A stretch of 33,013 nt of DNA from positions 1-33,013 of the forward strand of contig JADFOP010000023.1 of assembly GCA_022562795.1 (NCBI GenBank). Direction: 5' to 3'. The notes under the pieces are model-generated. The model had not been told where the DNA came from, searched no databases, and worked only from the letters and a program-made list of their open reading frames with translations. This DNA is from Nitrospinota bacterium (GTDB lineage: Bacteria; JADFOP01). Shown here in pieces: positions 1 to 29,682 of this stretch. Made by a program: the position numbers and the translations under genes. Position 1 is the stretch's first letter. Every line of letters starts with the position of its first letter.

Positions 1-285
1 AATGAAAGTCATCATGGAATCACTTTGGGCTGGCTTGGACAGGGACAGCTTCGTCATCAGCTGATGCTGTTGACGGGACCACAGCGAGAGCACGACGCTT
101 TTCTGTATTCTGTCAGCGGCCCGAGTTTTCCGTTGGCGGTGATGCATCGCCAGCTTCAAGCCGACGCCTGGCCGCTGGTGCTTCACGGCACCGAGTACGT
201 TGGTTCGACTGATAGCGGTGTACACATTTTCCGACCGGTCGAGTATCTGTTGTCACAACAGCCAGCCAAACAGACGACGAAGTGA
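1..285 (+). CDS. C-terminal end of an unrecognised protein (partial)
   Basis: An open frame runs from the first base of the window to a TGA at 283-285, so the gene probably begins before the window. A TTG at 25 is the first possible start inside it. About 95 residues are visible. The sequence is mixed and soluble-looking, with no membrane segment and no motif I recognise. No function is proposed. It lies on the plus strand, facing the 3' ends of the minus-strand genes that follow. It could also be a chance open frame. Confidence 0.3.
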   Translation, partial: NESHHGITLGWLGQGQLRHQLMLLTGPQREHDAFLYSVSGPSFPLAVMHRQLQADAWPLVLHGTEYVGSTDSGVHIFRPVEYLLSQQPAKQTTK

Positions 286-502
286 ACAATGCGAGCGTCG
301 TTGGCATGACGTAGTCCGCGTTGTCCAGCTGGTAAAATGGTACGTCCACTTTTACCACCCGCCGTCATAGCAGTGCTTGTTTAACACTGAGATCAAGGCA
401 GTTTTCCTTTTAAAATCATTGAGTTATGGGAGGAATTGTCCCATATTTGTCCCATAACGCCCACAATATGGGAAACGCAACACTGTCAGCTATTGATTTT
501 AC
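286..502. other. Gene-free stretch with palindromes
   Basis: No convincing gene is seen here. The right part holds an inverted repeat with arms CCCATATT and AATATGGG (442-449 and 467-474, arms 17 bases apart). A smaller one has arms ATGGGA and TCCCAT (426-431 and 439-444). GTCCCATA also occurs twice in tandem. The cluster ends about 28 bases before the tRNA-like fragment at 503. Dense palindromes beside a tRNA end are often seen at the edges of integrated elements, but no recombinase gene is visible. Confidence 0.4.
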
Positions 503-530
503 TGGTCGAGACGGCCGGATTCGAACCCGC
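503..530 (-). repeat. tRNA 3'-end-like fragment, possible attachment-site remnant
   Basis: Read on the minus strand, these 28 bases carry a T-arm with TTCGAAT loop, an acceptor 3' strand and CCA. They match the 3' end of the intact tRNA-Pro at 2292-2368 at 25 of 28 positions, in the same orientation. The upstream half of a tRNA is missing: the adjoining bases belong to the methyltransferase C-terminus. An intact tRNA followed downstream by a copy of its 3' end is the usual geometry of a tRNA-targeted integration. T-arms of all tRNAs resemble each other, so the match is suggestive only. Confidence 0.4.
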
Positions 531-548
531 GCCCACCGAAGCCGTGGC

Positions 549-1301
549 CTAGGCCGGCTTGATGGCCCGGAACGTCGCACCGATGGTCTCGTCGGAAGTC
601 TGGTAGCCGGTGAGGTCGACCTGCTCCGCCTCGGCGAACCCCGCCTTTTCGAGCAATGCCAGGAACTCCGTTCCCGGTAGGGCCCCGGCCACTCATTGGC
701 TCCACAGATCGGGGTCTTGAAGGGCCTCCGGCGGCAGGGGTTTCAAAAGAAGCATGTCCGCCACCATGAATCGCCCCCCGGGCTTGAGAACGCGGTGGAT
801 TTCTAAGAGCAGCGGCCTCTTTTCCGGCAGGAGGTTGATAACACCGTTGGAGATTACGACGTCGCATAGTTCATCGGCGAGCGGCAGGTTCTCGGCCAGC
901 CCTCGGAAGACCAAGACCTGCTTGGCCCCCTGAGCCTCGACGTTCTGGCGGGCCTTCTCGACCATCTCCGGGACCATGTCGAATCCAACGACGCTTCCCG
1001 TAGGGCCCACGAGTCGGGCCGCGATCAAGGCGTCGAGCCCGCTTCCGCACCCAACGTCAAGGACCGTCTCTCCAGGCTTGATGGGCCCGAGGCTGAAAGG
1101 GTTTCCAACCCCCGCGAAGGCCTCGGTGACCTCCGTCGGAAAGGAGTCGACCAGCTCTTCAGGATAACCCACAGCCTTTGCGCTCTCAGGCCCGATCGGA
1201 AATGGGGAGACCTGGGCTACCGCTACGCCGCTGAATCGGTACCAGATCTTGTTCCTGATCTCTTCGATGACCTCTTGGGGGAAGGACTCTCCAGGGCTCA
1301 C
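549..1301 (-). CDS. ArsM-like SAM methyltransferase, probable selenoprotein (in-frame TGA read as Sec)
   Basis: Class I SAM-dependent methyltransferase of the ArsM/UbiE-like group. The frame shows the SAM-binding motif VLDVGCGSGLDALIAA, the acidic GFDM strand, an SNGVINL motif and RVLKPGGRFMVADM. It then reads DPDLWSQ, a TGA at 693-695, and continues in the same frame as VAGALPGTEFLALLEKAGF to a TAG at 549-551, ending GATFRAIKPA. In family members as I know them this stretch reads like DLW..C(I/V)AGAL, so the TGA falls on the conserved, arsenic-binding Cys. I infer selenocysteine at codon 203 of about 250. The GTG at 1301 is chosen because GGAGAGGG lies just upstream; a TTG at 1358 also opens the frame but has no such site. 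Stopping at TGA would lose the C-terminal part of the fold. Substrate (arsenite or another soft metal or thiol acceptor) is inferred. Confidence 0.75.
659..677 (-). promoter_or_regulatory. Candidate bacterial SECIS hairpin
   Basis: On the minus strand, 15 bases after the TGA, CCGGGAAC pairs with GUUCCUGG (eight pairs, one of them G-U) around a GGA loop. The apical loop begins 23 bases after the TGA, inside the spacing I know for bacterial SECIS elements. The loop starts with G, as these elements usually do. The hairpin lies inside the coding sequence, as expected for SelB-dependent decoding in bacteria. Confidence 0.65.
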
Positions 1302-1504
1302 GATACCCTCTCCACGTTGGATTTCCTGGGAATTTGGGAATCTATTGACAAACGACAAACGCGCTCATAACGAGCGGATACCGTCCGGTTGGAATTCTAC
1401 ATTTGTGGGAGCTAAAAGAAAAGTAAGATTTTTTATGAGCAGGAGAGGGTGATTTGCTCTCTCAACCTAAGGGCGAGGACGTCGTCGGGAAGGAGAAGTT
1501 AAGC

Positions 1505-2200
1505 CTAGCCAGTACATGGGTAAATGGGAGGAAGGTCCTTCATGCCTGGAGGGGGCTTCGTAAAATACTTTGAATTTAATTTTTGGATGCGGGCCTGGTC
1601 TAACCTGAATTTTTTAATTTTAGGATTGTAGGGATAGCCGGTCTCGGTGAACCCCATTATGCAGCGGTTCGAACCATTTGGATTCTCCCACTCGATCTTT
1701 ACGGCGAAATACATCTTTCCTCCTTCATCGAGGTAGTCTAGCTTTCCCTCGATGGGATTGGACTTTAAAATCGCCTCAAAGGTGGCCCCTGGTTTAATAA
1801 CGGACGTAGTAGGGGCCTTTCGAAATTTCTTTCCCAGTAGGTTTGCGAAATATTCAAACGGATCGGGTAACACCGTTTTCGATTCATCCCATCGAGTGCC
1901 GTTATAATGTTGAAAATTGATTTTAAGATTGGATGCCGTGTAATCGCTGACGTTGATTACCTTTATTAATGATGTGACCGCTACAGGACCTTCGAGGAGC
2001 CGGGCGTTGCCTGATTTAACAATTTCCAGGGTGGCAACTCGCTGGATTGCAGTCGCGCCAGGCGCGGCAGGCGCGCGAGACGCGGTAGGCGAGGGAGTCG
2101 CGCCAGGCGAGGGAGGCGAGGAAATCAAATCTTTACCTACTACCAGGACAACAACGCCAACCAAGACCACTAAGAAAACTGCTATGAGGAATTTTTTCAC
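1505..2200 (-). CDS. Membrane-anchored hypothetical protein
   Basis: 231 residues from a GTG start. Residues 1-22 form one hydrophobic segment after MKK, so the protein is either anchored by its N-terminus or secreted. Residues about 28-52 are a Pro/Ala/Ser/Thr-rich linker whose DNA is a run of short G+C-rich repeats (GGCGAGGGAG-like, 2040-2125). The rest is a soluble domain, probably beta-rich, with two Cys near its C-terminal part. I do not recognise the family. The DNA is A+T-richer than the operon to its right. Together with its position between tRNA-Pro and the tRNA-like fragment, this suggests it was acquired by transfer. Confidence 0.7.
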   Translation of the reverse strand: MKKFLIAVFLVVLVGVVVLVVGKDLISSPPSPGATPSPTASRAPAAPGATAIQRVATLEIVKSGNARLLEGPVAVTSLIKVINVSDYTASNLKINFQHYNGTRWDESKTVLPDPFEYFANLLGKKFRKAPTTSVIKPGATFEAILKSNPIEGKLDYLDEGGKMYFAVKIEWENPNGSNRCIMGFTETGYPYNPKIKKFRLDQARIQKLNSKYFTKPPPGMKDLPPIYPCTG

Positions 2201-2291: not shown

Positions 2292-2368
2292 TGGTCGGGG
2301 CGGCCGGATTCGAACCGGCGACCCCCGGCTCCCAAAGCCGGTGCGCTACCAGGCTGCGCTACGCCCCG
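2292..2368 (-). tRNA. tRNA-Pro(TGG)
   Basis: A full 77-base cloverleaf with encoded CCA. The acceptor CGGGGCG pairs with CGCCCCG. The anticodon stem CCGGC/GCCGG closes the loop TTTGGGA, giving anticodon TGG (plus-strand 332-334 of the 2000s). The T-arm GCCGG TTCGAAT CCGGC is perfect. It lies 73 bases after rdgB on the same strand and may be cotranscribed with that operon. Confidence 0.97.
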
Positions 2369-6061: not shown

Positions 6062-6335
6062 GGACGCTACCCCCCGGGCGGCCTCTGTTCCTCAGAAATC
6101 TCGGCGCAATTCATTGAACAGGAAGGAGAACCGCCTCCTCCGCCCTTCTACCACATCGTCCCCGTGGTGTAAAGCTCCGGGGGCGGTATGGGAATTGGGT
6201 TGACCTGATATACAACCATGGCTGCTAACACCCGGAATGGTACAAATTTGGGCTGCATCATGGTAATGTAAGAGTACATATGCGGTGGGGGAGGAGCCGA
6301 CAGATTATTGTTCGGACATATGAAGAGCTTTTGAA
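6062..6335. other. Intergenic region between divergent amidase operon and kinase operon
   Basis: Must hold the promoters for the leftward amidase operon and for whatever is transcribed rightward. A TTGACC occurs at 6200, but I see no well-placed -10 for it. No RNA gene or long frame is recognised. Confidence 0.4.
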
Positions 6336-6434
6336 ATGGACATTGCAGACTGGTTTTCGAGGGGCTACCGGTTCTGGGGACTAATGCTATTCGTGGTGGT
6401 GTTCTTTTGGTGGGCGTTTGCGTATCGAAGATAA
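6336..6434 (+). CDS. Possible 32-residue single-pass membrane protein
   Basis: A short frame with ATG start and TAA stop. It encodes MDIADWFSRGYRFWG and then a strongly hydrophobic stretch LMLFVVVFFWWAFAYRR with a basic end, i.e. one membrane helix oriented positive-inside. The layout recalls CcoQ/FixQ subunits of cbb3 oxidases, but no oxidase gene is nearby and the ribosome site (GAAGAG) is weak. It stands alone in an otherwise empty 510-base gap. Confidence 0.35.
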   Translation: MDIADWFSRGYRFWGLMLFVVVFFWWAFAYRR

Positions 6435-6580
6435 CAGCCTAAGCCAATAAATTAGCCCACCGCTTCTGTGGGTGCGTCGTTGCAATCCCCCCATTCTTAT
6501 GCTATCTAAAACATTTAATGTCTTGATATTGCTGCGCCAAGGCGGGGCAGGGTTATAAGCGCCATGGGGGATTGGTAATC

Positions 6581-9187
6581 ATGCGACTCAGCGTCCGGGT
6601 CAAGTTGTCGGCCCTGATGATTGTCATGGTCGGGGCGGCCATCCTGATCACAGGCTATCTAACCTACCAGCACGAGAAAGTCGAGGCAGTCGAGATGCTC
6701 GGCGAACGGCTTCTTGCCATCGCCCGGACGGCCGCGCCGCTCATCGACGGCGATAAACACCAGTGGATATCCGAGCCGGAGGATGCCAACGGGCCCTTCT
6801 TCGAGGAGATCCGCCAACAGTTGATGGATATCAAAGAGCAAAACAGTCTGGCCACGGCCCTCTATACCCTGAGGAGCCATACGACCGGCCACCCCTCGCA
6901 TAAGCAGGCCGGCCTCTTCCCCCTCTCGCTTCTTGGCGCGTACAAGACCACCTTTGTCGTTATGACCAACGACCAGACATTCGTCAAACAGGACTACATC
7001 CTATTAGAGGAGATGAAGCCCGCTTTAGAACATGGCATCGCCACAAGGACGGGAATTTACGAGAACCTCATAGGCCAATGGATCAGCGCTTTCGCCCCGA
7101 TCAAAAGGAGCGACGGGACGATTGACGGCATCCTGGGGGTGGACTACCGGGTGGATGTCTTCCTGGAGGAGCTGGTCAAACGGCGGGCGGTCATCTTGCG
7201 CTACTCCATCATCGGGGCGCTGGTGGCCGTGGTAGCCGCTCTAATCTTCGCCCAGTTTATCTTCGTGGGGCCCATCAATACACTTGCCAGGGGAGCGAGG
7301 GCCCTGAAGGCAGGACGCTATGACGAGCCGATCCTGGGGCCAGACGACCAGCTGCCCCTCTACTGGCGCATTAAGCGGCGGGTGCCCGATGAGGTGGAGC
7401 ACCTGGCCGAGACGCTGGATGAGATGCGGAAGGCCCTGAAGGAGAAGATCGGTGAGCTGGAGAGCGTAAATCAAGACCTAGGGGCCCGAACCAGCGAGCT
7501 CTCCGAGACGACCAACTTCTTGAACAACATCCTCGAGGCCTCCACCGAATACGCCATCATAGCCTTCGACCTGGATGGGACCATGCTCACCTTCAACGAG
7601 GGGGCGCGCCGCACATACGGCCACGAGCCCGAGGCCATGGTCTACAAGCAGGGCCTGGCGGCCCTCCACCCCCCAAAGGCTCGAGAGGCTGGTAAGCCTG
7701 AGGCGATCCTGGCCAGCGCCCTTGGCGAGGGACGCTTCGAGGGTGAGCTTGAGCGTATCGACTCCTCGGGCCGCTCCTTTCCCGCCCACGTAGCCCTTAC
7801 ACTGAGGCGCGACGGAGAGGGCCGGCCCTTGGGCTTCGTTGAGGTCTCCCGGGATATCACCGTAAGGGTTAAAATGGAACGCCAGCTTCAGGACTACGCC
7901 GATAATCTAGAACAGATGGTCAAGGAACGGACCGAGGAGCTCGGAATCGCGCAGGACAAGTACAAAGCCCTTTTCGAGACGGTTCCAGACGGCATCTTCC
8001 AGTTCACCGCCGACGGGACCATGGCCTCCATCAACCCCGCCGGGGCCGAGATTCTCGGCTACGCGTCGCAAGCGGAGGTCGAGGGGCGCCTCTCCACACG
8101 GGATATCTACCACGACCCGGACGAGCAAGCCAGGCTCGACGCCGCCTTCGCCCAGAGCGACCAGCCGGTTGTGAAAGACTACCTGCTCCAGCTTAAACGG
8201 CGCGACGGCACTCCTTTCTGGGCCGAATTCTCCTCGAGGTTGGTCATGGGTGAGGATGGCGAGCCGGCCGCCATGGAAGGGGTGATGCGTGATGTCGACG
8301 AGCGGATCACCCTCCAGCAGCAGATTCAAGAAAACGCGGACCGTCTCGAGCGCTTGGCCCACGAGCTCGAGGTCAAGAACCGTGAGCTCCTCATCCAGAA
8401 CGAGCGCGTCTTGGAGGCCAACCGGCTCAAGAGCCAGTTTCTCACCAACATGAGCCACGAGCTTCGCACACCGATGAACGCCATCATCGGCTTCACAGAG
8501 CTCGTCCGTGAGGACGCCCGGGTCGTGCTAACCACGCGCCAGGAGGAGAACCTCCGCAAAGTCTCTAGGAACTCGAACCAATTGCTCAATCTCATCAACG
8601 ACATCCTCGATCTCAGCAAGATCGAGGCGGGCCACATGGACGTGGTGCCAGAGAGGGTGGAGCTGGCCGATGTGGTTGATGCCGCCTGGACGACGGTCCA
8701 GCCTCTGCTCAAGGGCAAGGAGCTTAATGTGGAGACGATGCTCGATTCGTCAATTCCTCCACTCCTGACCGACAGGAACAAGCTCCGCCAGGTGCTGGTC
8801 AACCTACTGTCCAACGCCATCAAGTTTACGCCGAGCGGAGAGGTTCGACTAACGGCCCGCTCCTACGACGGGCGCCTGGAGCTCAGAGTGACCGACACGG
8901 GCGTCGGCATCGCCAAAGAGGACCAGGAGATTATCTTCGACGAGTTTCGCCAGCTCGACGGAACCTCGACCCGAGAGGTGGGAGGCACGGGTCTCGGGCT
9001 CTCAATTTCGAAGAAGCTGGTTGACCTCCTGGGCGGCGCCATCGCGTTGGAGAGCGAACCGGGCCGGGGAAGCACATTCATCGTGAATCTGCCGCTCACG
9101 GTTCTGCCCCGAATGGCGGAGGCCCTGGAAGCAGCCGCCGTCAAGGTCGGCCAGGAGGCTAGCCGTGAAGACCATCCTCCTGATTGA
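6581..9187 (+). CDS. Membrane sensor histidine kinase with Cache-like, HAMP and two PAS domains
   Basis: 868 residues from the ATG at 6581, preferred to the TTG at 6572 because GGGGG lies 10 bases upstream. Order: TM1 (about 8-28), periplasmic sensor region (about 29-200), TM2 (about 204-228), HAMP (about 230-290), coiled coil, PAS1 (about 315-425, FDLDGTMLTFNEGARRTYG), PAS2 (about 460-580, TADGTMASINPAGAEILGY), coiled coil, HisKA with phospho-accepting H626 in MSHELRTPMN, then HATPase_c with N box NLLSNAIKF, DTGVGI and GGTGLGLSIS. It has no receiver of its own. Its 3' end overlaps the following response regulator by 23 bases, so the phosphate most likely goes to one or both regulators downstream. 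The signal is unknown. Confidence 0.95.
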   Translation: MRLSVRVKLSALMIVMVGAAILITGYLTYQHEKVEAVEMLGERLLAIARTAAPLIDGDKHQWISEPEDANGPFFEEIRQQLMDIKEQNSLATALYTLRSHTTGHPSHKQAGLFPLSLLGAYKTTFVVMTNDQTFVKQDYILLEEMKPALEHGIATRTGIYENLIGQWISAFAPIKRSDGTIDGILGVDYRVDVFLEELVKRRAVILRYSIIGALVAVVAALIFAQFIFVGPINTLARGARALKAGRYDEPILGPDDQLPLYWRIKRRVPDEVEHLAETLDEMRKALKEKIGELESVNQDLGARTSELSETTNFLNNILEASTEYAIIAFDLDGTMLTFNEGARRTYGHEPEAMVYKQGLAALHPPKAREAGKPEAILASALGEGRFEGELERIDSSGRSFPAHVALTLRRDGEGRPLGFVEVSRDITVRVKMERQLQDYADNLEQMVKERTEELGIAQDKYKALFETVPDGIFQFTADGTMASINPAGAEILGYASQAEVEGRLSTRDIYHDPDEQARLDAAFAQSDQPVVKDYLLQLKRRDGTPFWAEFSSRLVMGEDGEPAAMEGVMRDVDERITLQQQIQENADRLERLAHELEVKNRELLIQNERVLEANRLKSQFLTNMSHELRTPMNAIIGFTELVREDARVVLTTRQEENLRKVSRNSNQLLNLINDILDLSKIEAGHMDVVPERVELADVVDAAWTTVQPLLKGKELNVETMLDSSIPPLLTDRNKLRQVLVNLLSNAIKFTPSGEVRLTARSYDGRLELRVTDTGVGIAKEDQEIIFDEFRQLDGTSTREVGGTGLGLSISKKLVDLLGGAIALESEPGRGSTFIVNLPLTVLPRMAEALEAAAVKVGQEASREDHPPD

Positions 9188-29315: not shown

Positions 29316-29682
29316 GGGGGCGAACAGGGCTCGACGGGGAGGAATGACGTCGAGGCTGCATGTCGAGGCCCGCGACCTCGTAAAATACGCGGAACATGAC
29401 AACTGCCAATCCACAACTGGCAATGGCCGCTTAACCAGCAGTGGCCCGTGCCTTTCCGCATTCGCCTCTGGGGCGGTAAGGGGCGTCAGACTACAGGGGT
29501 GGACGATCCGGCAGGCGCCGATGGGCCGGGAGCCGTCCTTAATTTAAGTCGGCTAGCCTCCCGGGCGGTGTCCCTGTCGGTGGGGCGGCGCGGGCGGCGA
29601 AGCTTCAAATACACCGGATAAGCATGTAGATGTCTCGGGGAAACCTCTTCGGACGGGGGTTCGATTCCCCCCGCCTCCACCA
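29316..29682 (+). ncRNA. ssrA: tmRNA (SsrA), tag ANPQLAMAA
   Basis: 367 bases. The 5' end GGGGGCGAACAGGGCTCGAC pairs with the 3' end CGCCTCC-ACCA as the acceptor. The tRNA-like end has the T-arm GGGGGTTCGATTCCCCC and the conserved AAGCATGTAG upstream. After CTCGTAAAA the tag frame reads GCC AAT CCA CAA CTG GCA ATG GCC GCT TAA (29405-29434), i.e. A-N-P-Q-L-A-M-A-A. The first tag codon is set by analogy with other tmRNAs, since A-N is the usual beginning; one codon more (Thr) is possible. CCA is encoded. SmpB is directly upstream. Confidence 0.96.

Follow-up and report, generated by a model that had tools for sequence, protein, structure and literature searches.

The window analysed here, a stretch of 33,013 nucleotides from a Nitrospinota bacterium, carries on its minus strand a gene that is best explained as a whole, with a probability of roughly 0.85, as encoding an ArsM-like class I SAM methyltransferase with selenocysteine at position 203 as its lone soft ligand or nucleophile. 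The reading of the UGA at 693-695 as selenocysteine, predicted from the sequence, is held with still somewhat greater confidence. The gene comprises the following features:

549 to 1301, minus strand: probable selenocysteine-containing SAM methyltransferase gene of 250 residues, with a GTG start at 1301 and a TAG stop at 549-551
693 to 695, minus strand: codon 203, an in-frame UGA with a probable selenocysteine reading; its column is that of CmArsM Cys224
659 to 677, minus strand: SECIS-like hairpin of 8 bp with a GGA triloop, the loop lying 24 nt after the UGA
1306 to 1313, minus strand: strong ribosome-binding site GGAGAGGG, 4 nt 5' of the GTG start

With TGA read as selenocysteine, positions 549-1301 form a single frame of 250 residues, and the frame, its coordinates and the placement of the TGA at codon 203 agree in full with a preliminary description of this DNA, to which the GTG start and its ribosome-binding site are additions. 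The 47 sense codons claimed there beyond the TGA were likewise recovered, up to the TAG, and the C-terminal part that they encode aligns with homologues (G221, F222, G241, A246 and K248). The openness of these codons is weak evidence in itself, because a run of this length at such high GC is expected by chance about one time in three (P ~0.35), and the selenocysteine reading of codon 203 is based on homology rather than on the open frame. Truncation by a gene caller had also been anticipated; a mechanical ORF caller indeed ends the gene at the TGA, with a product of 221 residues from a TTG start. The locus is a clear example of ordinary ORF calling truncating a gene.

The class I SAM methyltransferase fold is indicated by matches to Pfam methyltransferase domains (Methyltransf_31, 6e-32), by an AlphaFold2 model built from 25 sequences (mean pLDDT 92.4), and by a structure search in which the first 13 matches were all ArsM or AS3MT, with 4fr0 and 6cx6 at the top (E 1.7e-20).

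The UGA codon in the methyltransferase family

Aligned with solved structures, among which ArsM enzymes are the best matches, residue 203 falls on the cysteine of the motif G-E-C-(L/I)-(A/G)-G-A-L, which is Cys224 in CmArsM, and it is also aligned with the cysteine of the Chlamydomonas ArsM. The column, previously proposed to be a conserved cysteine, proved to be invariant in the alignment, with Cys in all seven Cys homologues. The UGA lies in this Cys-type column with conserved sequence on either side, as is expected of a selenoprotein gene.

A scan of genome contigs with the window protein as the single query gave no matches, and a TGA-specific DNA pattern, D-L-W-x-x-[TGA]-(I/V)-(A/G)-G-(A/G), was used instead across GTDB genomes taken one per species (84,980 species). 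It identified at least 117 stretches. At least 103 of these code for proteins homologous to the window protein, and their TGA occupies the corresponding codon; being seeded with TGA, these counts describe the spread of the selenocysteine form and give no ratio of selenocysteine to cysteine forms. The loci, at least 103 of them independent, belong mostly to Actinobacteriota, Chloroflexi, Acidobacteria and Proteobacteria. Among the matches listed (103 homologues), nearly all frames continue for about 55 codons beyond the TGA (median 56), and most of the encoded proteins share 37-50% identity with the window protein. Of 40 tested genomes that carry listed TGA homologues, 34 contain a selA gene scoring higher than the curated cut-off, and none was detectable in the other six. 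UGA-coded ArsM-like methyltransferases are common across many phyla, yet they fall below the curated family cut-offs. In one Chloroflexota locus, two ArsM-like methyltransferases stand in tandem (L058:4868-5509 and 6200-6835), each carrying a TGA in the position of the conserved cysteine (DLWTGU and EDWFRU).

The hairpin that had been described as starting 15 bases past the TGA, with eight pairs and a three-base loop beginning with G, is present as CCGGGAAC-GGA-GUUCCUGG; on its own it exceeds chance expectation only slightly, as 6% of synonymous recodings of the window gene gave a comparable 8-bp hairpin (p ~0.06). Within the gene, such hairpins come after 6 of the 231 codon positions, and the initial hairpin scan picked a different best hairpin in the window. 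The folding energy of the region is unremarkable, lying within the range of synonymous recoding (z from -0.64 to -0.82); a hairpin of specific shape, in place of plain folding energy, was taken as the informative test. Over the full 48 nt, the GGA hairpin is not the lowest-energy structure (-21.0 for another fold versus -16.6 with the hairpin enforced), and it becomes the favoured structure when folding omits the 9-15 nt directly behind the UGA, which the ribosome would cover.

In the relatives, the corresponding hairpin, GCUCUGCC-GGA-GGCAGAGC, has an 8-bp stem and a GGA triloop situated 18 nt after the UGA. The window hairpin matches it in size and loop, with its loop placed 6 nt (two codons) further than the family position. 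Of the 103 listed relatives, 46 have, at a fixed place, a G-first loop on a stem of 7 bp or more, and 44 of these 46 loops are GGA; synonymous recoding of the same relatives gave 2.6 such hairpins on average and never more than 7. Judged on sequence, a SECIS role of the window hairpin is plausible, the case being strong for the family and modest for the window gene alone. Selenocysteine at the conserved Cys site, as first proposed in the preliminary description, is strongly supported by the Cys column, the TGA codons and hairpins of the family, and the occurrence of selA in the relatives.

Partner cysteines and the question of arsenic

In CmArsM, activity on As(III) depends on Cys72, Cys174 and Cys224, and activity on MAs(III) on the last two of these; the C174A and C224A variants are inactive on both (PMC3877260). 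At these three ligand columns the window protein has Val65, Gly153 and U203, respectively. Among the 91 listed selenocysteine relatives that are long enough, the Cys72 column is occupied by V, T, I, M or S in every case, and the Cys174 column by Gly in 90 and Ser in one. The Cys-type relatives of the window branch likewise have no Cys at the partner columns, while in three true ArsM controls each of the three ligand positions is Cys. Two further cysteines, Cys158 and Cys210 in window numbering, are common elsewhere in the family and not universal, and five of the selenocysteine methyltransferases (L059, L072, L075, L139 and L145) contain, in the aligned stretch, no Cys at all apart from the selenocysteine.

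These residues bear on the possibility that the window gene encodes a genuine arsenite methyltransferase, with selenocysteine taking the place of the Cys224 ligand. Its closest solved relatives, by sequence as well as by fold, are ArsM and AS3MT, and the nearest NCBIfam models carry the arsenite methyltransferase name. However, the Cys72 and Cys174 columns hold Val65 and Gly153, and the ArsM model NF008823 gives the window protein 204.4 bits against a cut-off of 263, while the true ArsM control L033 reaches 365.7; three other selenocysteine members of the family also fall below that cut-off. The genomic context of the relatives points the same way: the 25 Pfam families that occur most often in their operon neighbours include none for arsenic resistance. 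The 114 neighbours include rhodanese (15), ArsR-type HTH (13), MFS (5), OsmC (4) and DsrE (4) proteins; the window locus itself has no neighbours of these kinds. A true arsenite methyltransferase therefore appears unlikely, although it is rated above the other alternatives. The window protein is probably not an ordinary arsenite METHYLTRANSFERASE, and arsenic binding or ArsM-type arsenite chemistry by it is unlikely as far as its sequence indicates, because ArsM needs two or three cysteines and the partners are replaced here by Val65 and Gly153. The earlier suggestion that selenocysteine in place of a metalloid-binding Cys might serve arsenic chemistry is not supported, since the partner cysteines are absent both here and family-wide.

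Selenocysteine machinery and integrity of the locus

The source assembly (2.15 Mb in 84 contigs, 97.1% complete) contains a tRNA-Sec (77.6 bits versus a gathering score of 47; also called by ARAGORN) and a SelD with its own in-frame TGA (HGGGUACKLG, with the UxxK motif); SelD of another genome of the same class (G002) likewise has an in-frame TGA. The N-terminal part of SelD with the TGA runs off its contig (L025:1-693, G000 C27), and the C-terminal part lies on another contig (L026:9926-11041, G000 C45) in an in-frame fusion with a PAS sensor protein, an arrangement suggestive of a chimera made in assembly. Neither selA, searched with two models, nor selB was found in the assembly, the best selB matches being 401-aa frames below the cut-off that are probably EF-Tu. 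Decoding would require both of these genes. Of the sel genes that the preliminary description had linked to its proposal, selC (the tRNA-Sec) and selD are thus present, whereas the assembly lacks selA and selB, so that the refuting condition named there, a genome without selA, selB and selC, applies in part, though a genome of the same genus (G001) has both, selA being followed by selB with a 4-nt overlap and adjoining scpA (L154:5940-9271). An assembly gap beside scpA was considered as the cause and rejected, because scpA is present in the genome of the window and synteny with G001 ends just upstream of it, where other genes occupy the spot. The selA-selB genes have either been lost or belong to a portion of the genome that the assembly does not cover, more probably the latter.

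The surroundings of the gene include three further features:

503 to 528, minus strand: imperfect duplicate (23/26) of the 3'-terminal part of the tRNA-Pro, shortly beyond the 3' terminus of the selenocysteine gene
1505 to 2200, minus strand: upstream ORF of 231 aa with no Pfam match, at most a candidate member of the system
2292 to 2368, minus strand: tRNA-Pro(TGG), the probable integration site of a small stretch of lower GC that carries the selenocysteine gene

The repeated segment is the 3' end of the tRNA with its CCA (2292-2317, minus strand), and the GC content between the two copies is about 0.45-0.60 in parts, as compared with about 0.67 beyond. The arrangement looks like a small island that was integrated at the tRNA-Pro and carries the selenocysteine gene; BLAST of window positions 1-560 against plasmids and phages gave no matches. 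The Rfam tmRNA model gave a sub-threshold match over the tRNA fragment (503-593, minus strand; 16 bits versus a cut-off of 47), and the real tmRNA of the window lies at 29316-29682.

It may be asked whether the TGA is instead a plain nonsense mutation of TGC or TGT in a cysteine gene, which would make the locus a recent pseudogene. The missing selA and selB would fit this, as would the 47 open codons, which are not rare at the GC content of the window, and the position of the protein in a 71-row tree, where it forms a long branch (2.51) beside Cys forms (97/89) and not beside selenocysteine forms, a placement that is uncertain for long rows such as this one according to a warning of the tree program. 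A random nonsense mutation, however, would have had to strike the exact codon at which at least 103 relatives carry TGA. The methyltransferase motifs and the C-terminal residues are intact, with GC3 of 0.75 before and 0.87 after the TGA; a hairpin of the family type follows the codon, and the genome has kept both a tRNA-Sec and a UGA-containing SelD. A pseudogene is accordingly considered improbable, more so than a true arsenite methyltransferase. Reading of the TGA as Trp, or general readthrough under an altered code, can be dismissed almost entirely, as nothing specific speaks for it, the column is Cys and not Trp in the Cys homologues, the genome has a tRNA-Sec, and many genes of the family across phyla themselves terminate with TGA.

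Putative chemistry and relation to known selenoproteins

For a selenocysteine methyltransferase of this type, the UGA at 693-695 would be decoded by SelB and Sec-tRNA with the aid of the downstream GGA-loop hairpin. Sec203 would then lie adjacent to the methyl group of SAM, as Cys224 does in ArsM, if the alignment with that residue is followed. As the sole soft nucleophile or ligand, it may bind a substrate of the sulfane-sulfur, selenium or thiol-bound metalloid type during methylation of the atom concerned. Such lone-selenolate chemistry on a soft substrate is proposed tentatively, with considerably less certainty than the selenocysteine reading itself. The rhodanese, DsrE and OsmC neighbours suggest sulfane sulfur, or selenium handled alike, as the substrate, a suggestion drawn from the neighbourhoods of the relatives and not from the window locus; a metalloid bound to one thiol, such as DMAs(III), whose methylation needs one ligand, is another possible candidate. 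For the family at large, it is conceivable, at somewhat less than even odds, that these widespread single-domain selenocysteine methyltransferases have left arsenic chemistry and use a lone selenolate, with no Cys needed anywhere in the protein, on a sulfane-sulfur, selenium or other soft substrate linked to partners of the rhodanese, DsrE and OsmC types. That selenocysteine is retained although both partner cysteines are gone implies that one selenium atom may suffice for whatever the substrate is, which is testable, and the label of arsenite methyltransferase is for the same reason probably wrong for the selenocysteine family.

Selenocysteine in ArsM-like methyltransferases is already known from NCBIfam models and from a review (PMC13188914), and arsM was named a selenoprotein in the 2008 GOS paper. 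Arsenite methyltransferase (NF008823, motif UxxG) is given as an experimentally verified selenoprotein family, citing Fomenko 2007, with WP_011987699.1 as a listed example of the ArsM type, and the double selenoproteins NF041536, NF041537 and NF047649 are listed as well (PMC13188914). A statement that the stand-alone selenocysteine members lack the partner cysteines was not found in the literature searched. In Natrononativus (L031), a gene of the AhpD type (carboxymuconolactone decarboxylase, 1043-1459) directly precedes a Cys-form methyltransferase (1471-2241), a pair that resembles the fused ArsM_AhpD selenoprotein.

With the ArsM-type selenoproteins of NF008823 the window protein shares the ArsM-like SAM methyltransferase domain and the probable selenocysteine in UxxG, here U-V-A-G, but it differs in its score below the model cut-off and in having neither partner arsenic-ligand cysteine. 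Its best NCBIfam matches are NF041537 (ArsM_AhpD_UU), NF041536 (ArsM_DUF2284_UU) and NF047649 (MTase_UXPK_star), at 277, 246 and 269 bits, respectively; it matches them along the methyltransferase part, with selenocysteine at the UxxG site, but does not reach their cut-offs of 510, 575 and 460, and it consists of one domain of 250 residues containing one selenocysteine, without the fused second selenocysteine domain. CmArsM and human AS3MT (4fr0, 6cx6 and 8xt7) have the same fold, with TM-scores of 0.74-0.76 to 4fr0 and 6cx6 and U203 in the Cys224 column, whereas the window protein carries Val65 and Gly153 in place of Cys72 and Cys174 and is without the longer C-terminal part of CmArsM.
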